Shown here in pieces: positions 4,748-19,891 of a stretch of DNA of 42,667 nt. The translations under genes were made by a program, and so were the position numbers. Below the pieces are notes generated by a model that saw only the letters and a program-made list of their open reading frames with translations, was not told the DNA's origin and searched no databases. Origin of the DNA: Micromonospora sp. CPCC 205371 (GTDB taxonomy: Bacteria; Actinomycetota; Actinomycetes; Mycobacteriales; Micromonosporaceae); contig NZ_JAIBNX010000050.1 in the NCBI RefSeq assembly GCF_026130045.1, positions 1 through 42,667 on the forward strand. Reading direction: 5' to 3'. Every line of letters begins with the position of its first letter. Within the stretch, counting starts at the first letter, position 1.

Positions 4748-7426
4748 CTACGGTTTGCGGCTGCAGCTCACCGTGGGCGGGTTGTTGGCTCCGTTCCAGT
4801 TGCCCACGAACCCGAACGTCGCTGTCTGGCCGGGTGGCAGCGCGCCGTTCCAGCTCTCGTTGAGGACGGTGTACGGACTGCTGCCGGGGATCGTGGTCCG
4901 GCCGCCCCAGATCTGGGACAGGGTCTGGCCGTTGGGGAAGGTCATGGTCACGGTCCAGCTCGTGGTGCCGGTCGCTGCGGTGTTGGTGACCCGGACCTCG
5001 CCCTGGAAGCCGCCGCGACCGGTGCCCCACTGGCCGATCCGCGAATACGTGGCCGAGCAGCCATCCGTGCCCGTCGGCGGCGGCGAGGTTGTCGTTGGTG
5101 GTTGGGACGTCGGCGTGGGTGGTTGGGACGTGGCGGTTGTCGGTGGACGCGTTGGCGTGGTGCTCGTCGGCGGACCGGTGGGGTCGGCCACGAGGACGCC
5201 GCGCCCGTCGGTGCCGAGATACACGCGGCCGTAGACGTTCGGGTCACCGGTGATGGCCTGGCCGGCGTTGCCGTATTGGTGCTGGTCGTCGTTGATCCGC
5301 ACCCAGCTGACGCCCGCGTCGTCGGACCGGTACACGCCCCGGACACCGTCGATGGTGGCCATCGTGTACAGCGCCTGGTTGGTGCGGCCGGGAGCCGGCG
5401 CGCCGAATCCGACGCTCACCGCGCTTGAGCTCGCCGCGATCTTGTTGAACGTCGAGCCGGAGTTGGTCGAGTGGTGGATGCCGGTGTCGCTGGCGAGCCA
5501 GATGTCGCCCTCGACGCCGGGCATTGTCTTGAACTGGCCGGTCGAGCCGAGGCCGGTCGCGGCCGCGGTGAAGCTCTGCCCGCCGTTGGTGCTCACGTAG
5601 AACGTGCCGCCCGAGAACCCGTAGAACTTGTTGGGGTTGACCCGGTCGGCTTCGACCCGGGCCTGGTTGGGCAGGCCGCTGGATGGGCTGAACGAGCCGC
5701 CCACACTGGTGGAGAAGAACACGCCCGCGTTCTCGCTGCTCCACACGACGCGGCTGGCGTTGGCGTTCATGGCCACGTGTCCGCGTTGGGCGCCGTCGGG
5801 CACGCTGCCGGTGAACCAGTTCGCTCCGGCGTCGGTGGAGTACGCGATGTTCGCCGAGTTCGTCCGGTCGGTCTGGCCGACGCGGACCATCCACATCGGG
5901 TTGCCCTCGGCGTAGTCGAGGCTGGTGACCGCGCCCATGAACGGCGTGTACATCAGGGCCGGGACGGCGTTGAGGTTCGTGTGCCGGAACCCTCCGATGT
6001 CGAGCAGGCCGGAGAACAGCGGTCCGCTCGGGTGGCTCACCAGATCGGTGACGACGCTCGACTCCATGGCTCGCACCATCGGCACCAGGTTGACCGTGCC
6101 GCCGGTGTCCAGCGCGGTCAGGTTCGTCGTGCCATAGACGGAGGCGCCGCCGTACATCATCCGGTTGGAGTTGAACGGGTCGATCTCCAGCGCCTCGGTC
6201 ATCCAGCCGAGCTTGGGCGCCTGCTCCGGCGGCGAGGGTTGGGCGGCGTAGGTCAGCCACGGTACCGAGCTGATGTCGAGGTTGTAGTGGTTGGTGCGGT
6301 TCCCGTTCGTGTAGTCCCAGAAGGACCGCCACGTCGCGCCGGCGTCGGTGCTGCGGAAGATGAACGTGTCCGGCCACCACGAGCTGTAGCCGGTGACCAT
6401 GACGGTGTTCGGGGCCTGCTTGTCGATGGACAGGCCGGAGAAGCCGTACCAGTTGTCGCCGCCGCCCGGCGTGGGCGGGGTGATGTCGGTCCAGGCGCCG
6501 GTGGAGATCTGGTACCTCGAGACCGCGCCGGTGCCGCCGTCGTACGGGCCGCCCTTGTCGCTGGTCGCGATGTACAGCGCGCCGCCGGCGACCTCGCCCT
6601 GGTGGGCGAACGCGCCGGTCGGCTGGCCGGCGACCCGCTCCCATGTGGACCCGCCGTCGGTGGAGCGGTACACGGTGTTCTGCAGGTCCGCCACGCCCAC
6701 GTAGATGCCGGGCGTGGTGCGGCCGGAGGTCCCGCTGGCCTTGTCGAACGCGACCCACACCACGCCCTGGTTGAACGTCAGGTACTGGTTGGGGTCGGCC
6801 GGGTCCTGCACGTAGTTGCCGGCGTTGGGGAAGTTCGTGACCTGCGACCAGGTCACGCCGGCGTCGGTGCTGCGCCACAGGCCCTGACCGGCCTCGGCGC
6901 CGAAGTACAGCACGTTGTTGTTGTTCGGGTCCACGGCCAGGCGTTCGCCCATGCCCCGGCCGGGCATGTTGCCGCCCACCTTGAACGGCAGCTCGGTGAC
7001 CTGCCACGTGGTGCCCCGGTCGGCGGAGCGCAGGATCGCGCCGTTGTTGGGGTCCCAGCTGTTGAGGTACATCCCCACGGCGGCGTACACCCGGGCCGGG
7101 TTGACCGGGTCGCTGGCCAGGCTCAGCACGCCGTTCCAGCCCCAGCGATCCCATCCGACCCAGTCCAGCAAGGGCGTCCAGCTGCTCGTGCTCTGATTCC
7201 ACCGGTACGCGCCGCCGACGTCGGTGCGCGCGTAGATGAGGTTCCGTTCGGTCGGGTTGAAGACGATGCCGGAGACGAATCCGCCTGCGTCGAGGCGAAC
7301 GTTCTTCCAGGAGTACGGCACGGACGGGGCGGCACTGGCGCTCGGGACATTCACCGTGACCAGAGCGACCGCCGCCGCGCCCGCGGCCAACGCGACTGAC
7401 AGCGCGCCGGCGAGCTTCTCGCGCAT
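4748..7426 (-). CDS. Secreted GH74 xyloglucanase with C-terminal CBM2
   Basis: An 892-residue secreted endo-beta-1,4-glucanase, probably cutting xyloglucan. The signal peptide spans about 1-32 (MREKLAGALSVALAAG... to SASA). Twin beta-propellers cover about 33-760, with many sialidase-like repeats (RSTDAGVTW, RSTDGGSTW, RSDDAGVSW). The Asp in ARTDVGGAYRW and the Asp in LLDIGGFRH match the two GH74 catalytic acids. A Pro/Thr/Ser linker follows, then a family 2 carbohydrate-binding module ending PPTVSCSRKP, with tryptophans in QIWGG, ESWNG and GNWNG. The ATG at 7426 is chosen over 7633 because it begins the signal peptide and has a GGAAGGA ribosome site. The promoter and a CebR-like box lie about 190-235 bases upstream. 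Confidence 0.93.
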   Translation of the reverse strand: MREKLAGALSVALAAGAAAVALVTVNVPSASAAPSVPYSWKNVRLDAGGFVSGIVFNPTERNLIYARTDVGGAYRWNQSTSSWTPLLDWVGWDRWGWNGVLSLASDPVNPARVYAAVGMYLNSWDPNNGAILRSADRGTTWQVTELPFKVGGNMPGRGMGERLAVDPNNNNVLYFGAEAGQGLWRSTDAGVTWSQVTNFPNAGNYVQDPADPNQYLTFNQGVVWVAFDKASGTSGRTTPGIYVGVADLQNTVYRSTDGGSTWERVAGQPTGAFAHQGEVAGGALYIATSDKGGPYDGGTGAVSRYQISTGAWTDITPPTPGGGDNWYGFSGLSIDKQAPNTVMVTGYSSWWPDTFIFRSTDAGATWRSFWDYTNGNRTNHYNLDISSVPWLTYAAQPSPPEQAPKLGWMTEALEIDPFNSNRMMYGGASVYGTTNLTALDTGGTVNLVPMVRAMESSVVTDLVSHPSGPLFSGLLDIGGFRHTNLNAVPALMYTPFMGAVTSLDYAEGNPMWMVRVGQTDRTNSANIAYSTDAGANWFTGSVPDGAQRGHVAMNANASRVVWSSENAGVFFSTSVGGSFSPSSGLPNQARVEADRVNPNKFYGFSGGTFYVSTNGGQSFTAAATGLGSTGQFKTMPGVEGDIWLASDTGIHHSTNSGSTFNKIAASSSAVSVGFGAPAPGRTNQALYTMATIDGVRGVYRSDDAGVSWVRINDDQHQYGNAGQAITGDPNVYGRVYLGTDGRGVLVADPTGPPTSTTPTRPPTTATSQPPTPTSQPPTTTSPPPTGTDGCSATYSRIGQWGTGRGGFQGEVRVTNTAATGTTSWTVTMTFPNGQTLSQIWGGRTTIPGSSPYTVLNESWNGALPPGQTATFGFVGNWNGANNPPTVSCSRKP

Positions 7427-7614
7427 GTGCGGAGTCCTTCCTTGAGGCAAGCGGATTCCGTGTGGACGGAATGGCGTGAAGCGGCGCGCCACGCACGGGC
7501 GGTCGCTGGACATCTCACCGCTCAGAGAGGCAGCGGTGACCGCCGGGCTGAGGTTGCGGCCAGCAGGACATGACGACGTTGCAGGTGATCTCCTCGGGGG
7601 TTCATAGAGATCGA

Positions 7615-7628
7615 TGGGAGCGCTACCG
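7615..7628 (-). promoter_or_regulatory. CebR/CelR-like operator
   Basis: TGGGAGCGCTACCG on the plus strand matches 12 of 14 positions of the actinomycete cellulose-utilisation operator TGGGAGCGCTCCCA. It sits just downstream of the predicted -10 of the xyloglucanase promoter, where a LacI-type repressor would block initiation. This suggests induction by cello- or xylogluco-oligosaccharides. No CebR gene is in the window. Confidence 0.7.
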
Positions 7629-7632
7629 AACA

Positions 7633-7661
7633 TCCTTAGTTAGGCGACTTATGAAAGTCAA
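7633..7661 (-). promoter_or_regulatory. Predicted promoter of the xyloglucanase gene
   Basis: On the minus strand TTGACT (7656-7661) and TAAGGA (7633-7638) are separated by 17 bases, a vegetative sigma-type layout. The CebR-like box starts about five bases after the -10. The resulting 5' leader would be about 200 bases. Confidence 0.5.
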
Positions 7662-7789: not shown

Positions 7790-9493
7790 TCAGCGTGTGC
7801 GTGGTCCGGACAGGGCGCCGTCGGGCAGACGACGGTAGTGGGATAGGAAGTCGTCCCAGAGCTTGAAGCCGAGGTTCGTGGGCCAGAAGTGGCCGATGTC
7901 GCCGTTGACGGTCCAGCGGTACTCGGCGACGCCGTCGCGGTATATGTCGGTGGTGTATCTTCCGTCGACCTCGACGGTGGGTGGTCCGGCGTTCTTGTTG
8001 ACGGTCTCCCGCCAGAAGAGTTTGGCTGCGGCTTCGCCGGCGGTGCCGCCGGGGTAGTCGGTGGGGACTTCGTTTACGCCGCGGCATTGCCATACCGGCA
8101 GGGGTACGTCGGTGCGCACGATGGGGTTGGTGTAGCTGGCGGCGTTGAGGTGTCCGGAGTAGCAGGGTGCGATGGCGGCGAACAGGTGTGGGTACTGCAC
8201 GGCGAGGCGGTTGGTGAATGCCGCGCCCTGGGAGACGCCAGTGACGATGACGCGGGTGGTGTCCACGGCGAACCGGGTGGTGACGTCGGCCAGGATGCCA
8301 AGGGTTGCGGCCACGTCGGGGTTGGCGGCGTCGATGCTGCCGCTGAAGCCGATGTTGGCTCCCGTCGCCGGTTCGGCTTGGGGGTATACGACGATGAAGC
8401 CGCGCGTCTCGGCGACCTCGTGCCATCCGGTCTGCTGGGCCATGTAACGGCCTGATCCGTTGCGGCCGTGGAAGGCCAGGACCAGGGGCATGGTTCGGCC
8501 GTGCGCGGTCAGCTTGCGGTAGTTGCTGGGCAGGTACACCAGCCAGCGACGGGTCTGGCCGGCGAGCGTGGCGGTGTATTCGGTGAGCCGCATCTGCTTG
8601 GCGGTCCGGAACGGCACGAGGTGTCCGTTGACGGAGTCTTGGTCGGTGAAGCGCAGGGTGGGGTGGAACATGTCGCGCCAGATCGCCCGGGCCACGCTGA
8701 CGCCGCCGAGGGTGGACGGGTGGCGCAGGTGGGAGACGCGGACCTGCGCGAGGGGGTTGGTGGGGTTGCGGTAGACGGTGGTGTCGAAGTCGCGTCCGCC
8801 CTCGTGCCGGGCTCGGCTGCTGACGCCGTTGGCGCGCTTCCAGTATTCGACCTGCCGGTGCTCGTCGGCGGTGGGCCGGCGGCCAGTGATGAACGTCCAG
8901 CTCGCCATCGTGGTGGTCCGCAGCCGCGCGCTCGCGGACTGATAGAAGTCGGCTGGCGCGCCACCGGTGAGGCTGGCGACGGCGACGTACCGGGGTGAGT
9001 TGATCGCGGCGACCTCGTTGGCGACCGCGGCGCCCGCACCTTCGCCGACCAGGTACGTGTTGACGGCGCTGCCTTGGTAGGCGCCCCGGACCGCGTCGGT
9101 GACCGCGGTGACGAAGCCGATGTCGTCGGTCCGGCCTGCGTCCAGGTTGGTGTTCCAGGAGCCGTTCAGCGCGCTGGGAAAGGCAGCGATGAAGCCTTCC
9201 TCCTCGGCCATATTGGTCCACTGTGTACGAAGCGCGTGGTCGCGTGCGGTCTCGCCGTCGGCGTGCAGGATCACCACGATCGGGTTGTTCTTGGGATCGG
9301 CGACCCGGTAGGCGGGTTGGTCGCTGGGGACGTACAGGGCGTACTGCCGGGTCACGCCGTCGACCACCAGCGTCTGGTCCAGCAGCGGCTGCAGGGCCGG
9401 CTCGGCGGGACGCGCGTACGCGGTCGCGGGCGCCGCGACGGTGAATCCGGTTAGACAGGCGATGGCCGCCGCGGCTGCCTGTAGTCGCTTCAT
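7790..9493 (-). CDS. Secreted twin-domain LpqC/PHB-depolymerase-like esterase
   Basis: A 567-residue protein with a signal peptide (about 1-27, ending ATAYA) and two alpha/beta-hydrolase halves of the LpqC/polyhydroxybutyrate-depolymerase type. The second half (about 300-567) keeps the nucleophile elbow GVSQG with Ser421, an HGRNGSG oxyanion-type loop and a C-terminal GDIGHFWP histidine. The first half (about 35-290) keeps the fold and the DDIGFVTAV helix motif. Its elbow reads GEGAG, with Gly152 where the Ser should be, so it is probably inactive. The likely role is de-esterifying plant polymers (acetyl or feruloyl esters), inferred from the neighbours. Its start overlaps the mannonate dehydratase-like gene by four bases (ATGA). 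Confidence 0.82.
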   Translation of the reverse strand: MKRLQAAAAAIACLTGFTVAAPATAYARPAEPALQPLLDQTLVVDGVTRQYALYVPSDQPAYRVADPKNNPIVVILHADGETARDHALRTQWTNMAEEEGFIAAFPSALNGSWNTNLDAGRTDDIGFVTAVTDAVRGAYQGSAVNTYLVGEGAGAAVANEVAAINSPRYVAVASLTGGAPADFYQSASARLRTTTMASWTFITGRRPTADEHRQVEYWKRANGVSSRARHEGGRDFDTTVYRNPTNPLAQVRVSHLRHPSTLGGVSVARAIWRDMFHPTLRFTDQDSVNGHLVPFRTAKQMRLTEYTATLAGQTRRWLVYLPSNYRKLTAHGRTMPLVLAFHGRNGSGRYMAQQTGWHEVAETRGFIVVYPQAEPATGANIGFSGSIDAANPDVAATLGILADVTTRFAVDTTRVIVTGVSQGAAFTNRLAVQYPHLFAAIAPCYSGHLNAASYTNPIVRTDVPLPVWQCRGVNEVPTDYPGGTAGEAAAKLFWRETVNKNAGPPTVEVDGRYTTDIYRDGVAEYRWTVNGDIGHFWPTNLGFKLWDDFLSHYRRLPDGALSGPRTR

Positions 9494-10644
9494 CGGGACG
9501 CCTCGACGGCCTGCATCAAGGCGCGCAGGTAGCCGTAGCCGTGGGCGTAGGCCTGCTTGCTGCCCGGATCGTCGGGGTGGTCGGGAACGTGGTCCGGGTC
9601 GACGTTGTAGGAGTAATCCTCCTCGGCCAGGATGCGGATGATCCGGGCGTGGTCGATGTCGCCCTCGTCTGGCCAGACCTCCATGAAGTCGTCGCGCCGT
9701 CCGATGATGTTTCGCAGGTGGATGTTGAACACGCGCTTGGTGCGGGCCAGCCGCCGCACGATGTCGTAGATTTCGCGTGGTGGGTCCCAGAGCATCTCGG
9801 CGAGCGTGCCGACGCAGAGGTTGAGCCCGTGGTAGGGGCTCTTGTGCAGTGACAGGAATGTGAACAGGCCCTTGCCGCCAGGGACGCTCAGGACGTTGGT
9901 GATGCCGCGGTAGCCGCCGGGCGGAGTCCCCGGATCTTGCGGGTGGCAGGCCGCGCGCACCTTGAACTGGTGGGCCACGGGCATCACGCGCTGGACGAAG
10001 TAGTCGATGCGTTCCCAGAAGGTGTCCGCGTCCACGACGCCGGCGCGGGTCAGCGGCTCATCGCGGGGCAGGTCGGCGGCGCGGAACTGTCCGTACACCG
10101 AGCCGCCGCGGCCGGGCACCTCGCCGGTGCGCAGCACGCCGAGCAGGCTCATGTTGTATTTGAAGCCGGGTACGCCGGCGATCGCGCAGGCCTCGATCAT
10201 CTTGTGGATGTCGTCGATGTCCCGGTCGCGCTCGGGGCTCTTGCCGAGCATGATCGCCGGTCGGGGGTCGCGGTCGATGTGTGACGAGGTGAGCAGCGGC
10301 AGGGCCACCATGTCCAGGGTGACGCCGTTCTGCTCGGCGAACTCGCGGGTCTGCTCGACCTCCGACGGCAGCCAGTAGCCGCGGCCCTCGGCGAGCGGGG
10401 GCGCGGGCGGGTAGCCCACCCAGTGCGTCACGCCGTGCCTGGTGAACTCCTGCAGTACCGCTGCGGTTGCCGCTCTGCGCTGTGTGCCGACGTGCATCTT
10501 GAGCTTGCGGTGCGGTCGGTGCCGTTCGCCACCTGAGGCGTGAGCCGGCGACGCGGGACTTCCCAGTAGCGCCCCCGCCCCCGCGATGGCCGCGGCCGCC
10601 CCGCCTCGTTGGATGAATGCTCTGCGATCGATCGACTGACCCAT
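9490..10644 (-). CDS. Tat-exported mannonate dehydratase (UxuA)-like protein
   Basis: A 384-residue TIM-barrel protein resembling D-mannonate dehydratase, which makes 2-keto-3-deoxygluconate. UxuA-like landmarks appear in order: ACHPQDPGTPP (metal-site His), LNLCVGTLAEM, FNIHLRNI, WPDEGDIDHARIIRIL and DPDHVPDH. It begins with a clear twin-arginine signal (SIDRRAFIQRGG, then an alanine-rich core ending PAHASGG). This is unusual because UxuA normally works in the cytosol. It is the first gene of the leftward pair with the esterase, and the 90-base module at 10711-10800 lies upstream. It could instead be a secreted sugar-acid isomerase or epimerase. The family is fairly sure, the exact reaction is not. 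Confidence 0.75.
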   Translation of the reverse strand: MGQSIDRRAFIQRGGAAAAIAGAGALLGSPASPAHASGGERHRPHRKLKMHVGTQRRAATAAVLQEFTRHGVTHWVGYPPAPPLAEGRGYWLPSEVEQTREFAEQNGVTLDMVALPLLTSSHIDRDPRPAIMLGKSPERDRDIDDIHKMIEACAIAGVPGFKYNMSLLGVLRTGEVPGRGGSVYGQFRAADLPRDEPLTRAGVVDADTFWERIDYFVQRVMPVAHQFKVRAACHPQDPGTPPGGYRGITNVLSVPGGKGLFTFLSLHKSPYHGLNLCVGTLAEMLWDPPREIYDIVRRLARTKRVFNIHLRNIIGRRDDFMEVWPDEGDIDHARIIRILAEEDYSYNVDPDHVPDHPDDPGSKQAYAHGYGYLRALMQAVEASR

Positions 10645-10710
10645 GGGACCCTCCTGAAGAAAGCGGGATCATTCGGACATGCGAGGGCGCGGCCGTAACA
10701 CGTCCGGACG

Positions 10711-10800
10711 TCGTTTCGATGTGGTGACGGGAACGTTAAGCACCGTTAGCCATGCTGATCCAACACAGCTTTGGCATCGTCCGATACCTTTTCGGCATCT
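10711..10800 (-). promoter_or_regulatory. Regulatory module, left copy (LysR target, uxuA-like promoter)
   Basis: Read on the minus strand these 90 bases align without gaps to the plus strand at 11704-11793, with 74 identities. The block contains GATGCC-N5-GGTATC, then GGTATC-N4-GATGCC (overlapping dyads resembling a LysR-type site), a TTGGAT -35-like hexamer and TTAACG about 18 bases later. It lies between the LysR stop and the uxuA-like start and points at the uxuA-like gene. Confidence 0.75.
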
Positions 10801-10806
10801 GGCCGT

Positions 10807-11688
10807 CTACGCCGCGACCCGCTCCAGGAGGGCCGCCAGCGCTGGGTTTTCGTTGGTGGTCCGCCAGACGCAGTGCAGGGTGACGGTGTCTTCCTCGACG
10901 TCCTCGACGTCGAGGAACGTGAGGTTCTCCAGCCGAAGGGCCGAGGCCGAGCGCGGCACGAGGGCTACGCCCAGGCCGGCGTTCACGACGGCCAGCACGG
11001 TGTGGACCTGGCTGATGTGCTGTACGTAGTGGGGCGTCACGCGGGCCTGGTGGAAGGCCGCGACAACCAGTTCGTAGAAGTACCACGCCTCCGACGGTGA
11101 GTAGGTCACCACATCGTGCTCGGCGAGGTCGGCGAGGCGGGGTGGACGGCCGAGGGCGGTGAGCGGGTGCCCACGGGGAGCGGCGAGGACGAGCGAGTCG
11201 GTGTGGACCAGCCGAGAGGTGAGCACCTCGGACCGGGGGACCTGGCGTACCAGCCCGACCTCGATCTCGCCGGCCAGGATGGCGTCGAGCTGGGCGTGGG
11301 TGACCATCTCGTGCAGCACGAGGTCGACCTCGGGCAAGTGCTCCGCGGCAACGGCGATCCAGTGCCCGAGCACGGTAAGCGCCGACACGGCGGTGAAACC
11401 GATCCGGATCGATCCGGCCGTGCCGGCCGCGACGCGGCGGGCGAGCAGCGGAGCGGTGGCGGCGAGGTCGAGCACCCGCCGGGCCTCGTCGAGGAAGACG
11501 CGTCCGGCCGGAGTGAGCGTCACGCCAGTGGGGGTGCGCTCGAAAAGAACGATGCCGATGCTGTGTTCGAGCCGCTGCACCTGGCGGCTCAGCGGCGGCT
11601 GGGTCATCTGTAGCCGGGCTGCGGCCCGGCCGACGTGGCCTTCCTCGGCGACCGCCACGAAGCCCCGTAGCTGATCGAGGGTGTACAT
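10807..11688 (-). CDS. LysR-family regulator of the aldarate cluster
   Basis: A 293-residue LysR-type transcription factor. The N-terminal winged helix-turn-helix reads MYTLDQLRGFVAVAEEGHVG, then AAARLQMTQPPLSRQVQRLE and FERTPTGVTLTPAG. The effector domain follows from about residue 90 (GSIRIGFTAVSAL; VGLVRQVP; LVLAAPRGHPL). The ATG at 11688 is used because earlier in-frame starts lie before the family N-terminus. The gene sits between two outward-pointing copies of one regulatory module. It therefore probably controls both the leftward uxuA-like/esterase pair and the rightward aldarate operon, and itself through the right copy just upstream. The inducer is probably an aldarate or keto-deoxy sugar acid (inference). 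Confidence 0.9.
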   Translation of the reverse strand: MYTLDQLRGFVAVAEEGHVGRAAARLQMTQPPLSRQVQRLEHSIGIVLFERTPTGVTLTPAGRVFLDEARRVLDLAATAPLLARRVAAGTAGSIRIGFTAVSALTVLGHWIAVAAEHLPEVDLVLHEMVTHAQLDAILAGEIEVGLVRQVPRSEVLTSRLVHTDSLVLAAPRGHPLTALGRPPRLADLAEHDVVTYSPSEAWYFYELVVAAFHQARVTPHYVQHISQVHTVLAVVNAGLGVALVPRSASALRLENLTFLDVEDVEEDTVTLHCVWRTTNENPALAALLERVAA

Positions 11689-11703
11689 CGATCCTCCCAC
11701 GCA

Positions 11704-11793
11704 CGATGCCGAAAAGGTATCAGGCGATGCCAAATCTGTGTTGGATCGGTATGGCGTTGCCTGCTTAACGTACCGGTCACCTCATCGAAACGG
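11704..11793 (+). promoter_or_regulatory. Regulatory module, right copy (aldarate operon promoter)
   Basis: This is the inverted partner of 10711-10800, with 74 of 90 bases identical. It carries GATGCC at 11705, GGTATC, a second GATGCC, TTGGAT and TTAACG. The most diverged block is six bases between TTGGATC and TGCTTAACG, as expected of a promoter spacer. It ends 11 bases before the kdgD start and begins 15 bases upstream of the LysR start on the other strand, so it can serve both divergent genes. Confidence 0.75.
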
Positions 11794-11804
11794 AGTTTGA
11801 AGTC

Positions 11805-12719
11805 ATGACGCGTTACGCCCCGGAGGAGATTCAGCAGGTGCTGGGCGGCGGGCTGTTGTCGTTCCCGGTCACCCACTTCACCGCCGAGCTGGACTTCGAC
11901 GAGGCTGCGTACCGGGACAACCTGGGATGGCTGTCGTCGCATCCGGCGGCGGGGCTGTTCGTCGCAGGCGGCACCGGTGAGTTCTTCTCGCTGACGACTG
12001 GTGAGGTCGGGCGGGTGGTGCGGGCGGCGGTGCGGGAGACCGCCAGGGCAGTCCCGATCATCGCCCCAGCCGGATACGGGACGGCGCAGGCGGTGGAGAT
12101 GGCCCGCGACGCCGAGGCGGCCGGCGCGGACGCGGTCCTGCTGTTCCCGCCGTACCTGACCGAGATGAGTCAGGACGGTCTGGCCATGCACGTCGAGGCG
12201 GTCTGCGCGGCCACGTCGCTGGGCGTGATCGTCTACCACCGGGCCAACGCGGCATTCACGGTGTCGACCGTCGATAGACTCGTCCGGACTTGCCCTAATT
12301 TTGTGGGCTTCAAGGACGGGGTGGGCGACATCGAGCTGATGACCCGCTTGTACGCGACGGTGGGTGATCGGCTGCTCTACATCGGTGGCTTGCCCACAGC
12401 CGAGACGTTCGCGCTGCCGTATTTGGAGCTCGGCGTGACGACGTACTCCTCGGCGATCTTCAACTTCGTGCCGAAGTTCGCGCTCGGGTTCTACGACGCC
12501 GTGCGGGCCGGTGACCGGGTCGGCGTCTACGGCCGGCTCAACGAGTTCGTGCTGCCGCTGGTGGAGATCAGGAACCGCCGGCCCGGCTACGCGGTGTCGA
12601 TCGTCAAGGCCGGCATGCGGGCGATCGGCCGTCCGGCCGGCCCGGTCCGCCCGCCGCTGACCGACCTGACCGACGACGAGATGATCAAGCTGACCACCCT
12701 CATCGAGAAGCTGGGGTAA
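11805..12719 (+). CDS. kdgD: 5-dehydro-4-deoxyglucarate dehydratase (KdgD)
   Basis: A 304-residue DHDPS-family aldolase-fold enzyme. It dehydrates and decarboxylates 5-keto-4-deoxyglucarate to 2-oxoglutarate semialdehyde in the cytosol. The family signature [11 protein letters not shown] lies near residue 54, and the Schiff-base lysine is in [10 protein letters not shown] (about residue 170). IVYHRANA and the C-terminal [12 protein letters not shown] and [11 protein letters not shown] are typical of KdgD rather than DapA. It is the first gene of the rightward operon, with a GGAG ribosome site about 10 bases before the start. The next gene follows after 4 bases, and encodes the enzyme that uses its product. 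Confidence 0.92.
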
Positions 12720-12723
12720 GGCA

Positions 12724-14307
12724 ATGACGGTCCTGACCGGGGCGATGCTGATCGGCGGCAGCGAGGTCCGCGGTGGCAAAGGTGAGGTCCGCGCCGTCGA
12801 CCCGCGCACCGGGCAAGCGCTGGAACCGGTGTACGGGCTGGGCGGCGCCGACGAGGTCGACCACGCCGCCGAGCTGGCCTGGGCCGCGTTCGCTGGCTAC
12901 CGCGACACCGACCTCCAGCGCCGGGCCGCCTTCCTGGACACGATCGCAGCCAACGTCGAGGCGCTCGGCGACGTTCTCGTCGACCGTGTCGTCGCCGAGA
13001 CCGGACTGCCGCGGGCCCGGGTCGAGTCCGAGCGGGCCCGCACGTGCGCCCAGCTGCGGCTGTTCGCCGAGGTCGTCCGCGAAGGCAGCTGGCTCGGCGT
13101 TCGCGTCGACCCGGCCCGACCCGAGCGGACGCCGTTGCCGCGGCCCGACATCCGCCAGCGGCGCATCCCCCTCGGCCCGGTCGCGGTCTTCGGCGCGAGC
13201 AACTTCCCGCTCGCCTTCTCGGTGGCCGGCGGCGACACCGCCTCGGCGCTCGCAGCCGGCGCGCCCGTGATCGTCAAGGCGCACAGCGCCCATCCCGGAA
13301 CGTCGGAGCTGGTCGGACGCGCGGTCCAGGCCGCGGTGCGGCAGCACGGTCTGCCCGAGGGCACGTTCTCGCTGCTGTTCGGCGACGGCCCCGGACTCGG
13401 CACCGACCTGGTCACCCATCCGCTTGTACGGGCGGTCGGGTTCACCGGCTCGCGTACCGGCGGACTGGCCCTCGTGGCGGCGGCTGCCGCGCGCCCGCGG
13501 CCCATCCCGGTCTACGCCGAGATGTCCAGCGTCAACCCGGTCTTCGTGCTGCCGGCAGCCTTGGCCGCGCGTGGTCCGGCGCTCGGCGCGGCGCTGATCG
13601 GCTCCGTCACCACCGGCGTCGGCCAGCTCTGCACCAGCCCCGGGCTGATCTTCGTGCCCGAGGGGGAGGGCTTTACGGAGTTCCTCGACGCGGCCGCCGC
13701 CGCTGTACGGGCGTTCCCGGCCGCGCCGATGCTGACCGCCGGCATCCACGCCGCGTTCACCGCTGGAGTGCAACGGCTTTCGACCGCCGACGGCGTCACC
13801 ATGGCCGCACGCGGCGATGACGACGACGCGATCGCCTCGGCCGGCCGCGCCGGCCTGTTCGTGACCGACGGCGCCGCGTTCCTGGAGAACCCGGCACTGC
13901 ACGAGGAGGTCTTCGGGGCGGTTGCGTTGGTGGTTCGCGTCGCGTCCGACGACCAACTCGGCGAGATCGTCGAACGCCTGGAGGGTCAGCTCACCGCTAC
14001 CGTGCACGCCGCGCCCGGCGACCGCGAGCGGGCGCGGCGGTTGCTGCCGTCGCTGGAGCTGATCGCCGGCCGGATCGTCTTCAACGGCTGGCCGACCGGC
14101 GTCGAGGTCGGGCACGCCATGGTCCACGGTGGACCGTTTCCCGCCACCTCCGACTCCCGCACCACGTCGGTGGGCACGCTCGCGATCGAACGCTTCCTGC
14201 GGCCGGTCAGCTACCAGGACGTGCCCGCCGACCTACTGCCCCAGGCCCTGGCCGACGACAACCCGCTCGGGCTGTGGCGGCGCGTCGACGGCCGGCTCGA
14301 AAGGTGA
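12724..14307 (+). CDS. 2-oxoglutarate semialdehyde dehydrogenase (KGSADH)
   Basis: A 527-residue NADP-type aldehyde dehydrogenase that would oxidise 2-oxoglutarate semialdehyde to 2-oxoglutarate, the last step of the aldarate route. The catalytic Cys303 lies in GQLCTSPG and the general-base Glu266 in [12 protein letters not shown]. The oxyanion Asn is in [10 protein letters not shown], and the cofactor Lys in [14 protein letters not shown]. The C-terminus carries [20 protein letters not shown]-type residues seen in this subfamily. The reading [11 protein letters not shown], with no Lys/Arg after Cys, separates it from generic semialdehyde dehydrogenases. Its stop overlaps the GTG start of the glucarate dehydratase. 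Confidence 0.9.
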
Positions 14308-15668
14308 CCGCCGTGATCGCTGACAACGCCGTACCGGTTGTGACGGACATGCGGGTAGTGCCGGTCGCCGGCCACGACTCGATGCTGCTCAACCTCAGCG
14401 GCGCGCACGGCCCGTTCTTCACCCGCAACCTCGTCATCCTCACCGACGCGACCGGGCAGGTCGGGGTCGGCGAGGTGCCGGGCGGCGATGCCATCACCCA
14501 GACCCTGCGGGAGGCGCGGGACCTCGTGGTCGGGCAACCGATCGCGCGGTACCACGCCGTCCTCGGCGCCGTGCGGCGCCGGTTCGCCGACCGCGACGCG
14601 GGCGGCCGTGGCCGGCAGACGTACGACCAGCGCACGACCGTGCACGCCGTCACCGCCCTGGAAGCGGCACTGTTGGACCTGCTCGGGCAGTTCCTGCAGG
14701 TGCCGGTGGCCGCGCTGCTCGGGGACGGGCAGCAGCGCACCACCGTCCCGACCCTTGGCTACCTGTTCTTCGTCGGCGACCGGAACAAGACCGACCTGCC
14801 GTACCGCGGCGAGCCGGACGCGACCGACCCATGGCTACGGCTGCGCCACGAGCCGGCCCTCACCGCCGATGCGATCGTCGCCCAGGCGGAGGCCGCCCAG
14901 GCCCGGTACGGCTTTCGCGACTTCAAGCTCAAAGGTGGCGTGCTGCCCGGACCGCTTGAGGTCGAGGCGGTCACCGCGTTGGCCGCCCGGTTCCCGCAAG
15001 CCCGCATCACGCTCGACCCCAACGGCGGCTGGCCGCTGAGGGACGCGATCGCGCTATGCCGGGACCTGGGCGGCGTGCTCGCGTACGCCGAAGACCCGTG
15101 CGGCGCCGAGGGCGGCTACTCCGCCCGCGAGGTGATGGCCGAATTCCGGCGCGCCACCGGGCTGCGTACCGCCACCAACATGATCGCCACGGACTGGCGC
15201 GAGTTGGCCCACGCCGTACGCGCCAACGCCATCGACATCCCCTTGGCCGACCCACACTTTTGGACGATGAACGGGTCGGTACGCGTCGCCCAACTTTGCC
15301 AGGCGTGGGGACTGACCTGGGGATCGCACTCCAACAACCATTTCGACGTGTCGCTGGCCATGTTCACCCACGTCGCGGCCGCCGCGCCGGGTGACATCAC
15401 GGCCATCGACACGCACTGGATCTGGCAGGACGGTCAGCGGCTCACCAAGCAGCCGTTGACCATCGCCGACGGCGTCATCAAGGTCCCGACCGCGCCGGGG
15501 CTCGGAGTCGAGCTCGACCTCGAACAGGTCGAGGCGGCGCACGAACTGTATCTGAAGCAGGGACTCGGCGGACGTGACGACGCCGTGGCCATGCAGTACC
15601 TCATTCCCAATTGGACGTTCGATCCCCAGCGACCCTGCCTCTCCGCTCTCTACAAGGAGTCGTCATGA
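14304..15668 (+). CDS. gudD: Glucarate dehydratase
   Basis: A 454-residue enolase-superfamily enzyme that dehydrates D-glucarate to 5-keto-4-deoxyglucarate with Mg2+. The catalytic lysine pair is in [10 protein letters not shown] (about residues 208 and 210). Metal ligands appear in [14 protein letters not shown] and TNMIATDW, and the catalytic His in [17 protein letters not shown]. The N-terminal capping domain includes [10 protein letters not shown] and [18 protein letters not shown]. The GTG at 14304 overlaps the previous stop (GTGA) and gives the usual family length. An upstream ATG at 14274 would run into that gene. The stop overlaps the tctC start (ATGA). Confidence 0.94.
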
Positions 15669-16660
15669 GTGAGTCCTTTGCCCGTCGGCGCGTCCTGGCC
15701 GTCCTCGCCGCGGCCGCCGTGCTGCCTGTCGCCGCCTGCGGTGGCGTCAAGGGCGGCAGCGACGACGCCGGCAGCGACTACCCCACCCGGGCCGTCAACT
15801 TCACCGTCCCGTTCGCGGCCGGCGGCAGCGGCGACCTGATCAGCCGGGCCGTCGCGAAGGCGGCCGAGAAGCCCCTCGGGCAGTCGATCGTCATCGCCAA
15901 CAAGCCCGGCGCCAACGGCGCGGTCGGCGGCAAGGAGGTGCTGGCTTCGACGCCGGACGGCTACAACATCGCTCTGGCGGTCAAGTCGCTGTTCGCGATC
16001 ACGCCGCTCGTGGTCAACGACCCCACTGCGATCCAGCCCGACAAGATGGAGATCGTGGCCACCCTGGTCCAGGAGGACTACGTCCTGGTCGTCAACGCGG
16101 CCTCGCCGTACAAGACGCTCGAAGAGCTGGTGAAGGCGCCGTCCGTCAAGTACGCGACCGCCGGCGTCGGCACCGGCGGCCAGCTGTCCCAGGCGCTGCT
16201 GTTCAAGGGAGCCGGTACCACGGCGACCGACGTGCCTTTCGACGGCGGCGCGCCCGCGGTTACCGCCCTGCTCGGCAGGCAGGTCGACGCCATGTCCGGT
16301 TCGCTGGCCGAGACGATGGAGCACATCAAGGCCGGCAAGCTGCGCCCGTTGGCCATCTTCTCCACCGAGCGCAGCGAATTCCTGCCCGACGTGCCCACGG
16401 CCAAGGAGAAGGGTTACGACGTCGTGGTCGACCAGCGGCGGTTCATCATCGCGCCGGCCGGCCTGCCCGAGGCCGTCTCCACCAAGCTGGAGCAGTCGTT
16501 CGCCGAGGCGCGCAAGGACCCGGCGTACGAGACGTTCCTGAAGGACAACTACATGGAGCGCTGGGAGGTCTCCGACGAGGAGGCGCGGCAGCACCTGAAG
16601 GACTCCGCCACGGAGTTCGCGACGCTGACGCAGAGGTTCGGCCTCACCTTCAAGTCATGA
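15665..16660 (+). CDS. TctC-type solute-binding lipoprotein
   Basis: A 331-residue extracytoplasmic binding protein of the tripartite tricarboxylate transporter family. The N-terminus is a lipoprotein signal ([23 protein letters not shown]) with the lipid-bearing Cys near residue 25. The mature part has the family landmarks [23 protein letters not shown] and [13 protein letters not shown], and [18 protein letters not shown]. The ATG at 15665 overlaps the gudD stop, and its own stop overlaps tctB. Its place within glucarate genes suggests it captures glucarate, galactarate or a related dicarboxylate (inference). Confidence 0.92.
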
Positions 16661-17163
16661 CAGTCGACCAGTCCGCCCCAGCCGAGGTGTCCGAGCAACC
16701 CGACGAGGACGGGCCCCTTCGCGGGGGTCCGGTCCTCGGCGCCGTCGCCGGCGCGATCCCCGTCGCGCTCGGCTTGGCCACCCTGTGGTACGCCCGGGGC
16801 CTCGGCTTCGGGCGGCTGGGCGACCCGGGACCGGGGCTGTGGCCGAGCATCGTCGCGGTGCTGCTGGTCTTCGCTGGCGCGGTCATCGCGGCCCGGGCCC
16901 GGGTGGCACGCGACACTGAGGCGTTCACCCGGGGCACGGCGGCAGTCGTCATCGGCGCGGCCAGCCTGGCGGTGTACACCTACCTGTTCGAGCTCGTCGG
17001 CTTCGAGATCCCCACGGTGCTGCTGCTGGCGCTGTGGCTGCGGTTCCTGGGCGGCGAGAGCTGGCGCGTCACCGCGGTGATTTCGGTACTGGCGACCGCG
17101 GGCGCCTACGCGTTGTTCATCATCGGGCTCGGCGTACCGCTGCCGCATCTGATCGGGGGCTGA
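16657..17163 (+). CDS. TctB-type small membrane subunit
   Basis: A 168-residue protein with four predicted membrane helices: LGAVAGAIPVALGLATLWYA, WPSIVAVLLVFAGAVIAA, GTAAVVIGAASLAVYTYLFEL with IPTVLLLALWLRFLG, and AVISVLATAGAYALFIIGLGV. This is the layout of the small TctB subunit of tripartite tricarboxylate transporters. The GxGDPGPGLWPS loop is a family feature. It sits between tctC and tctA, with overlap on the left and one base of spacing on the right. Confidence 0.88.
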   Translation: MTVDQSAPAEVSEQPDEDGPLRGGPVLGAVAGAIPVALGLATLWYARGLGFGRLGDPGPGLWPSIVAVLLVFAGAVIAARARVARDTEAFTRGTAAVVIGAASLAVYTYLFELVGFEIPTVLLLALWLRFLGGESWRVTAVISVLATAGAYALFIIGLGVPLPHLIGG

Positions 17164-17164
17164 C

Positions 17165-18679
17165 ATGGACGTGGGTTCCGTGCTGTCCGGGTTCGCGGTG
17201 GTGTTCGAGCCGCAGAACCTGCTGTACTGCGTGATCGGCGTGACCCTTGGCATGCTCGTGGGTGTCCTGCCCGGTCTCGGTCCGGCAGCCACCATCGCGA
17301 TCCTGCTGCCGATCACCTACAACATCGAACCCACGCCCGCGGTCATCATGCTCGCCGGGATCTTCTACGGCGCCCAGTACGGCGGCACCATCACCTCGGT
17401 GCTGCTGCGGCTGCCAGGCGAAGCGTCCACAGTGGTCACCGCGCTGGACGGGTACCAGATGGCCCGCCAGGGCAAGGCCGGCTCCGCGCTCGGGATCGCG
17501 GCGATCGGCTCCTTCATTGGCGGCACCGCCTCGATCATCCTGCTGACACTCATCGCCCCGCTCGTCGCCGACGCCGCCCTGGAATTCGGCCCGGCCGAAT
17601 ACACCGTGCTGGCCCTGATCGGCATCCTCCTGGTCGCCACCCTCGGCAACGGCGCCCTCATCAAGAGCGTCACGGCCGCCGGCGTCGGCCTGCTGCTCGC
17701 CACGGTGGGTCTGGACCCGCTGATGGGCAGCCCACGGTTCACGTTCGGCAGCGACCAGTTGGCCGACGGCATCGACTTCGTCATCGTCGCGATGGGCCTG
17801 TTCGGTGTGGGCGAGATCCTGTACAACCTCGAACACCGGCTACGGCCCCAGCCGGCCGTGCTCTCGTTCGGCCGGGCCATCCCGCGGCGGATGGAGTGGC
17901 TGGCGTCGCGGATGGCGATCCTGCGCGGCTCCGTCATCGGGTTCGTCCTCGGCGTGCTGCCCGGCGGCGGCGCAACCATGTCCTCGCTCGTCGCGTACGC
18001 CGTGGAGAAGCGCGCCGCCAAGGATTCGTCCCGCTTCGGCAAGGGCGCTATCGAGGGCGTCGCCGGACCGGAGAGCGCCAACAACGCAGCGGCGACGTCG
18101 TCGTTCATACCCTTGCTGACGCTCGGCATCCCGGCCAACGCCACCATGGCCGTCCTGTTTGGAGCATTGCTGCTGCAGGGCATCCCGCCCGGACCGCAGC
18201 TCATCGTCGACCACCCCGACGTGTTCTGGGGCGTCGTCAACTCCATGTACCTGGGCAACCTCATCCTGCTGCTGCTCAGCATCCCGCTGATCGGCGTGTT
18301 CGTACGGCTCCTGCGGGTCCGAGCCGGAATCCTCGCACCCCTCACCGTGCTGGTCACGATGATCGGCGTCTACAGCATCCGTAACAACGCGTTCGACATG
18401 TTCCTGGTCATCGCCCTCGGCATCCTCGGCTACGGCATGAAGAAGCTCGGCTTCGAACCCGGGCCCTTCGTCCTGGCGTTCGTACTCGGAAAGCTCCTCG
18501 AATCCTCGTTCCGCCGGTCGATGCGCCTGTTCGACGGCGATGTCCTCGGCTTCTTCCGCCGCCCGGTCTCGGCGGTCCTCGTCGCCGTCCTACTGATCAC
18601 CATCGTGGTCGTCCCCGTCCTACGGATGGTCCGCAGCCGCCAGGCGGCCCGGATCGCGCGCGAACCGAGCCAGGTCTAG
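17165..18679 (+). CDS. TctA-type large membrane subunit
   Basis: A 504-residue integral membrane protein, the transport channel of the tripartite tricarboxylate transporter. The conserved GMLVGVLPGLGPAATIAILLP motif near residue 30 is followed by GIFYGAQYGGTITSVLLRLPGE. A second copy of the motif (VLGVLPGGGATMSSLVAYAVEK, about residue 260) leads to GAIEGVAGPESANNAAATSSFIPLLTLGIPANA. About 11-12 hydrophobic segments are visible. With the binding protein and TctB it should drive cation-coupled aldarate uptake. Confidence 0.93.
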   Translation: MDVGSVLSGFAVVFEPQNLLYCVIGVTLGMLVGVLPGLGPAATIAILLPITYNIEPTPAVIMLAGIFYGAQYGGTITSVLLRLPGEASTVVTALDGYQMARQGKAGSALGIAAIGSFIGGTASIILLTLIAPLVADAALEFGPAEYTVLALIGILLVATLGNGALIKSVTAAGVGLLLATVGLDPLMGSPRFTFGSDQLADGIDFVIVAMGLFGVGEILYNLEHRLRPQPAVLSFGRAIPRRMEWLASRMAILRGSVIGFVLGVLPGGGATMSSLVAYAVEKRAAKDSSRFGKGAIEGVAGPESANNAAATSSFIPLLTLGIPANATMAVLFGALLLQGIPPGPQLIVDHPDVFWGVVNSMYLGNLILLLLSIPLIGVFVRLLRVRAGILAPLTVLVTMIGVYSIRNNAFDMFLVIALGILGYGMKKLGFEPGPFVLAFVLGKLLESSFRRSMRLFDGDVLGFFRRPVSAVLVAVLLITIVVVPVLRMVRSRQAARIAREPSQV

Positions 18680-18718: not shown

Positions 18719-19891
18719 ATGACGATCCCCGTCGCGCAGCGATTTCAGCCGGCATCGTCGGCGGCAGCCGGGGCGGATCGCATCGACCGCGTCCGTCTGA
18801 CGCTTTTCCGACTGCCCCTCAACACGGCGATCAGCGATGCCAAGGTGCTCACCGGCAGGCAGAAACCGCTGACCGAAGTCGCCGTTCTGGTCGCCGAGAT
18901 CGCCACGGCAGGCGGGCACAACGGTCTGGGTTTCAGCTACTCCAAGCGCGCCGGCGGCCCTGCGCTCTACGCACACGCCCGCGAGATCGCGCCGGAGCTC
19001 ATCGGCGAGGATGCCAACGACATCGCCCGCCTTTGGACAAAGCTGACCTGGGCCGGAGCGTCCGTCGGTCGCAGTGGCGTCGCCGCGCAGGCGATCGCGG
19101 CAACCGACATCGCGTTGTGGGACCTCAAGTCCAAGCGCGCCGGGCTGCCATTGGCGAAGCTGCTCGGCGCGCACCGCGCTGCGGTGAGGTGCTACAACAC
19201 CTCAGGCGGTTTCCTGTCTACACCCATCGATGACCTGCTCCACAACGCCGAACGGTCGCTCACCCGCGGGATCGGCGGGATAAAGATCAAAGTTGGCCAA
19301 CCAGACGCGGCCGCCGACCTGCGCCGGTTGGAGACCGTACGAGAACACTTCGGCGATGATGTCCCGCTCATGGTCGACGCCAACCAGCAGTGGGACCGCG
19401 CAACCGCCCACCGCCTCGGCCGCGTCCTGGAACAGTTCAAGCTGGAATGGATCGAGGAACCACTCGACGCATACGACGCCCAGGGCCACGCCGCCCTGGC
19501 CGACCGCCTCGATACACCAATCGCCACCGGCGAGATGCTCACCAGCGTCGCCGAGCACTGGAACCTGATCCAGGCCGGCGCAGCGGACTTCGTCCAACCC
19601 GACGCGCCCCGGGTAGGCGGCATCACGCCCTTCCTGCGGGTCGCTGCCCTCGCCGACCACGCAGGGCTCCGCCTGGCACCCCATTTCGCGATGGAGATTC
19701 ACGTGCATCTGGCCGCGGCGTATCCGGGCGAACCATGGGTCGAACACTTCGAATGGCTCGAACCCCTCTGGAACGAACGTCTCGACCTTCGCGACGGCTA
19801 CATGCTGGTTCCGGCCCGCCCAGGTCTCGGCCTGACCCTCAACGAGGACGCTGACGCGTACCGCGCTGAACGGGCGGAGATTACGTCCTGA
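18719..19891 (+). CDS. Galactarate/L-talarate dehydratase-like enolase-superfamily enzyme
   Basis: A 390-residue enzyme of the mandelate racemase group. It has GIKIKVGQP (Lys-x-Lys base), VDANQQWD (metal Asp), WIEEPLDAYD (metal Glu), IATGEML (metal Glu) and APHFAMEIHVHLAAAYP (catalytic His). The KIKVGQP and NQQWDR readings are like talarate/galactarate dehydratase. That enzyme would make 5-keto-4-deoxyglucarate (or its 2-keto isomer) and feed the same downstream enzymes. It follows tctA by 39 bases, with a GAGAGGG ribosome site. Another acid-sugar dehydratase specificity cannot be excluded. Confidence 0.82.
   Translation: MTIPVAQRFQPASSAAAGADRIDRVRLTLFRLPLNTAISDAKVLTGRQKPLTEVAVLVAEIATAGGHNGLGFSYSKRAGGPALYAHAREIAPELIGEDANDIARLWTKLTWAGASVGRSGVAAQAIAATDIALWDLKSKRAGLPLAKLLGAHRAAVRCYNTSGGFLSTPIDDLLHNAERSLTRGIGGIKIKVGQPDAAADLRRLETVREHFGDDVPLMVDANQQWDRATAHRLGRVLEQFKLEWIEEPLDAYDAQGHAALADRLDTPIATGEMLTSVAEHWNLIQAGAADFVQPDAPRVGGITPFLRVAALADHAGLRLAPHFAMEIHVHLAAAYPGEPWVEHFEWLEPLWNERLDLRDGYMLVPARPGLGLTLNEDADAYRAERAEITS

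Follow-up and report, generated by a model that had tools for sequence, protein, structure and literature searches.

In the accessible parts of PMC4730206 and PMC12016517, the promoters of LysR-type regulators are laid out with the RBS near -65, further sites around -35 and a divergent regulator gene, and the high-affinity site is the one placed at about -65. NahR, a regulator of this type, is encoded between the nah and sal operons for naphthalene degradation, and a NahR site lies 60 bases upstream of each start (PMC9298801, accessible part). The locus described here likewise has one LysR-type regulator gene between two operons, but the pathway is a sugar-acid one where that of NahR is aromatic, and lysR is flanked by two outward, near-identical 90-base modules, a pair that the accessible part of PMC9298801 does not describe for NahR. 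The BenM, CatM and CbnR promoters (RBS at about -65, ABS near -35/-10, sliding dimer) have their counterpart in a T-N11-A dyad at about -65, half-sites around -35 and a divergent regulator gene, whereas the pathway and inducer differ and here a second copy of the operator lies beyond the regulator gene. Known glucarate/galactarate catabolic operons include the same enzymes (KdgD and the glucarate and galactarate dehydratases), but here a LysR-type regulator and a tripartite tricarboxylate transporter accompany them. The switch is of an ordinary, well-known kind, and the flanking duplicate layout is an unusual variant of it. A literature search, judged by titles and the openings of abstracts, found no description of this regulator or layout.

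Both modules are very probably copies of the operator-promoter of the intervening LysR, with one activator coordinating two operons and the exported pair recruited by operator duplication. The features of the window (the whole 42,667-nucleotide stretch that was analysed) on which this reading draws are listed in Table 1.

Table 1. Genes and predicted control elements around lysR in the window.
Feature	Position	Strand	Evidence or remark
Esterase/PHA-depolymerase-like protein, Sec-type leader read by eye	7790..9493	-	NF050058 176.5 bits, cut-off 150; Pfam Esterase_PHB
UxuA-like TIM-barrel protein, twin-arginine-type leader read by eye	9490..10644	-	Pfam UxuA 1.8e-29
Left module, second operator-promoter facing the UxuA-like/esterase pair	10711..10800	-	74/90 identity to right module
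Left predicted -10, TAACGT	10733..10738	-	sequence
Left ABS-like half-sites ATGCC (10777-10773) and AGCAT (10756-10752); -35-like TTGGAT (10763-10758)	10752..10777	-	
Left T-N11-A dyad ATGCC-N5-GGTAT, RBS-like	10784..10798	-	sequence
LysR-type transcriptional regulator, 293 aa	10807..11688	-	Pfam HTH_1 2.7e-23, LysR_substrate 2.7e-39
Right module, operator-promoter in the gap between kdgD and the divergent lysR	11704..11793	+	upstream copy in 43/43 orthologous lysR loci
Right T-N11-A dyad ATGCC-N5-GGTAT, RBS-like	11706..11720	+	columns conserved in consensus; centre about -65 from predicted start
Right ABS-like half-sites ATGCC (11727-11731) and GGTAT (11748-11752); -35-like TTGGAT (11741-11746) between	11727..11752	+	
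Right predicted -10, TAACGT (TANNNT type)	11766..11771	+	TA column conserved in consensus, all three module classes
5-dehydro-4-deoxyglucarate dehydratase (KdgD)	11805..12719	+	TIGR03249 421 bits, cut-off 374
Aldehyde dehydrogenase	12724..14307	+	Pfam Aldedh 3.4e-46
Glucarate dehydratase	14274..15668	+	TIGR03247 826 bits, just below cut-off 828.7; 1bqg (D-glucarate dehydratase) 7.5e-219
Tripartite transporter: TctC (15653-16660), TctB (16657-17163), TctA (17165-18679)	15653..18679	+	Pfam TctC, TctB, TctA
L-talarate/galactarate dehydratase	18719..19891	+	NF047820 668 bits, cut-off 500; 2og9 1.5e-181, 2pp0 3.1e-167

The regulator has an N-terminal HTH_1 and a C-terminal LysR_substrate domain and, at 293 aa, the length of about 300 aa expected of LysR-type proteins; its start was taken as 11688 (MYTLDQLRGF) and the stop codon is at 10807-10809. 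The nearest solved structure by sequence is 1ixc (4.1e-37; entry title, LysR-type regulatory protein), which we take to be CbnR, and by sequence no solved structures come closer than the CbnR and BenM entries. To its right lies a glucarate/galactarate catabolic operon, in which KdgD and the galactarate dehydratase exceed their model cut-offs and the glucarate dehydratase, marginally short of its own, is backed by 1bqg; the true start of the last probably lies inside the frame listed. The aldehyde dehydrogenase is probably a 2,5-dioxovalerate dehydrogenase, the substrate being inferred from context because no NCBIfam model reached its cut-off among the 25 of 36 listed. On the other side, the UxuA-like protein scores 45 bits against the 200-bit cut-off of the NCBIfam uxuA equivalog and is called UxuA-like only. 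A Shine-Dalgarno-like AGGAGG lies 5 nt before its ATG, and its stop is overlapped by the start of the esterase gene, whose product exceeds the cut-off of the model for type 1 extracellular PHA-depolymerases. Beside the esterase gene, on the same strand, 4748-7633 encodes a large BNR-repeat protein with a CBM2 cellulose-binding domain, presumably resembling a GH74-type xyloglucanase.

The sequence-only reading had described an inverted 90-base pair, the minus strand of 10711-10800 against the plus strand of 11704-11793, and the pair is real, with 74 of 90 bases identical, ungapped, at exactly these coordinates. A repeat search of the window returned the same pair (88 nt, 84% complementary, 905 nt apart). 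The copies also flank lysR and face outward as described, the right one towards the glucarate/galactarate operon and the left one towards the UxuA-like/esterase pair. The right copy, divergent from lysR, starts 15 nt ahead of its start, and the left copy starts 6 nt past the lysR stop codon and is co-directional with it. The next best place for the left copy in the window matches at 42/90. Under a first-order Markov null (two 257-base flanks, all ungapped offsets, 1000 trials) the best match averaged 39.4 (sd 1.8) and reached a maximum of 48 of 90, which rules out chance similarity. A blastn search of the source genome (9.36 Mb, 481 contigs) with the right module found both known copies and four matches of 15-17 bases, and a 37-base operator pattern allowing at most two mismatches occurs at exactly two sites, the two modules of the window. 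With no third copy found in the genome by either search, a widespread repeat or mobile element is ruled out.

The motifs GATGCC and GGTATC, first described as shared dyads, are present in both copies, but they are not two dyads. A better reading makes them half-sites of a single LysR operator, the two arms of one imperfect dyad, ATGCC-N5-GGTAT, which forms a T-N11-A box in each copy. Measured from the first, the half-sites begin at 0, +10, +21 and +42, in helical register in both window copies; the third, at +21, is ATGCC, and the fourth, at +42, is GGTAT in the right copy and AGCAT in the left. TTGGAC and the half-sites are conserved across all three module classes. Matching -35/-10-like elements had also been proposed, and they are assigned by their conservation across relatives; a sigma-70 scan of 10400-12000 returned no promoter meeting the scan criteria. 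Transcription is predicted to start at about 11778 (right) and 10726 (left), approximately 7 nt past TAACGT, and the predicted left leader, from the start to the UxuA-like gene, is about 82 nt. The -65 position of the dyad depends on this predicted start. Each module has a T-N11-A dyad at a predicted -65 and further half-sites near -35/-10, and lysR is divergent from kdgD across the right one; the layout is that of a LysR operator-promoter.

LysR homologs were taken from 300 genomes of the family and from named genomes, the close ones including Micromonospora, Glycomyces, Actinomadura, Occultella, Acrocarpospora, Catenuloplanes and Plantactinospora. The 43 orthologous loci examined (lysR at least 45% identical) comprise 39 loci, 23 in a window-like gene order and 16 in another, and four that were added (L038, L204, L205 and L208). 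Repeat entries were merged (L027-L037, L138 and L139 with L056, L058-L067, L073 and L074), and L209 was treated as the same locus as L057 because their contigs are of equal length. A module, called at no more than two mismatches to the 37-base fixed-spacing pattern, lies upstream of lysR in all 43; in L155 it was missed in the 135-base flank and found in a wider one. The 83 other loci, comprising 64 distant LysR homologs (L076-L135 and L157-L160, covered only in this site scan) and 19 UxuA-like homologs, have no site at that threshold. Across 354 genomes of the family, the exact 37-base pattern has 54 sites in 33 genomes, 47 of them within 150 bases of a lysR ortholog, and the reversed control has 0 matches. 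The upstream copies, the proximity to lysR and the agreement of the two window copies at the most conserved positions support the earlier proposal, that a promoter-operator unit of the neighbouring LysR was duplicated and is under constraint.

Two gene orders account for nearly all of these loci. Order A is that of the window, with lysR divergent from kdgD (24/24 loci and the window). In order B (18/18 loci), kdgD and two dehydratase genes come after lysR on the same strand, and tctCBA is divergent from lysR. L205 fits neither order, and the upstream copy is the only one at its lysR. Behind lysR, a second outward copy is found in all 18 order B loci and in none of the 24 order A loci, so that the search of related genomes for paired modules, suggested by the sequence-only reading, gave a mixed outcome: the upstream operator position is kept throughout, but the second copy belongs to the other order. 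Of the added loci, L038 (order A) carries the upstream copy alone, and L204 and L208 (order B) carry both, the downstream copy of L208 with one mismatch. The window is order A yet has a second copy. Exact sites on both sides of lysR were found in 14 of the 33 genomes, that of the window included. In order B loci including L147 and L148, the downstream operator shares bases of its first half-site (TGATGC) with a TGA that was read by eye and is probably the lysR stop codon.

Five other genomes of the genus of the window have no ortholog of its lysR (best E 5.6e-35, 33% identity). When the lysR stretch was searched in six genomes of the genus, only weak matches were found beyond the window, the best at 1.9e-12 and all within the lysR coding stretch by query position. 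Since those five genomes have no ortholog, the lysR cluster may have come by transfer or may have been lost in sibling genomes.

In a tree of the modules (75 columns; short, and weakly resolved in places), the two copies of the window are sisters (support 0.92) and stand next to the upstream copies of Micromonospora, with the order B copies apart from the pair. The lysR tree also places the window beside Micromonospora. Because the copies are sisters, the window pair looks like a separate, recent and lineage-specific duplication in which the left copy would have been made from the right; among the genomes searched, the left copy was seen in the window only.

That lineage-specific appearance would also suit a left copy that is a passive, inactive by-product of a recent inverted duplication, with the UxuA-like/esterase pair read through from lysR or otherwise controlled. 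Read-through is possible, as the left pair is read in the same direction as lysR and a search of 10400-12000 found no terminator-like site. Nor was the module found at the scanned loci of UxuA-like homologs. Matches to it occur in 9 of 300 genomes of the family and 24 of 394 of the class, the source genome included in each, and the other eight of the family are at most 39% identical. Of 38 listed homolog matches, 19 loci were fetched (with short flanks), and 0/19 have a module; no relative with a module before a UxuA-like/esterase pair was found among them. With only distant homologs and no module at these 19 loci, the UxuA-like gene is ruled out as a conserved partner of the module. Against a passive copy, the spacing of half-sites, -35 and -10 is intact, and an outward copy occupies the same position behind lysR in every order B locus. 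Further, the differences between the window copies avoid conserved columns. When columns conserved at 85% or more in 55 other modules were compared with the rest, the copies differ at 0/25 conserved and 14/50 variable columns (one-sided Fisher p 0.0017; orders A and B, 0.85). The other definitions gave p values of 0.027 (A and B, 0.75), 0.043 (A only, 0.75) and 0.082 (A only, 0.85), and, as p varies with the conservation threshold, selection on both copies has moderate support. On this evidence a passive left copy appears unlikely.

It is similarly improbable that both copies are ancestral, as in the order B clade, and were later homogenised by gene conversion. That clade has the conserved pair in 18/18 loci, the lysR tree joins it to the outgroup (0.993), and an inversion of lysR between two outward modules would leave each operon its module and so relate the two gene orders. 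However, the left copy is absent from 24/24 order A loci, so an ancestral pair would need losses, and the left copy is the sister of the right one and not of the order B downstream copies (0.92). It is very improbable that the inverted pair acts as a unit, either through a LysR assembly that loops the DNA across both modules or through repeats that let lysR flip: the symmetric layout would suit both, and the general homotetrameric state of LysR proteins (PMC4730206, accessible part) would suit looping, but the pairs of 14 genomes show six distinct spacings (890-979) that share no helical phase (resultant 0.15), which speaks strongly against looping and against constant phasing of the copies, and 84% identity with short exact runs would make a poor substrate for recombination.

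In the preferred reading, of a duplicated operator-promoter served by the LysR encoded between its copies, a LysR tetramer would place one dimer on the T-N11-A dyad at about -65 and the other on the downstream half-sites around -35, where a sugar-acid inducer (glucarate, galactarate or an intermediate further along the pathway) would make it shift. Rightward activation would cover kdgD, the aldehyde dehydrogenase and glucarate dehydratase genes, tctCBA and the galactarate dehydratase gene, and leftward activation would cover the exported UxuA-like protein and the esterase. The right copy overlaps the region of the lysR 5' end and therefore probably governs lysR autoregulation too. As a lineage-specific duplicate of the right one, the left copy would have brought the exported pair into the regulon. 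The sequence pair, its conservation and spacing in relatives, its linkage to lysR orthologs and the preservation of the most conserved positions in both copies are observed; LysR binding, the inducer, activation, the points where transcription starts, autoregulation and joint control of the left pair, and with it the common switching of secreted and cytosolic arms proposed by the sequence-only reading, are inferred. Since two outward copies of the same control DNA flank lysR, one regulator probably turns on both the breakdown operon and the exported-enzyme pair in this soil-type actinobacterium.

The locus looks like a case of recent regulon growth by duplication of a whole operator-promoter, an event that has an older counterpart in another clade, so the way in which operators are recruited is open to direct test. 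Whether this extends to a recurrent design is evenly balanced. Two outward operator-promoters around lysR would then be a repeated solution in actinobacterial sugar-acid catabolism, present as an old pair in one clade and gained a second time, through operator duplication, in the lineage of the window, each adding a second operon without moving or copying the regulator, and the module would be a portable unit wiring secreted plant-polymer enzymes to aldarate catabolism. The specific 37-base operator also predicts targets of an actinobacterial sugar-acid regulator.

Seven of the 54 exact sites are away from lysR, some of them before kdgD, tctC, a malate:quinone oxidoreductase gene or a gene for a GlcD-like FAD oxidase. 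Modules do not always flank lysR, since those of L205, L206 and L207 front kdgD or tctC without an adjacent lysR, an arrangement that suits a diffusible regulator. L205 has two module sites. The one at its lysR (about 62% identical to that of the window) faces a 2-hydroxyacid dehydrogenase gene, and the other, which is window-like, is at a kdgD (83% identical) 7.6 kb from lysR (sites L205:2975 and L205:11463). In L206 (site L206:8044) and L207 (L207:7600) the module lies before tctC, beside a kdgD/galactarate dehydratase-like pair; the 16 kb fetched contain no lysR match, and the lysR ortholog of each genome is more than 1 Mb from the module. Four order B genomes (L202:1174, L203:8600, L204:10905 and L210:8305) have an extra operator beyond the kdgD operon, at a distance of about 6.2 kb from lysR. 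By profile, the gene that follows it encodes a malate:quinone oxidoreductase in L203 and a GlcD-like FAD oxidase in L202; read by eye, that of L210 apparently also encodes a malate:quinone oxidoreductase.
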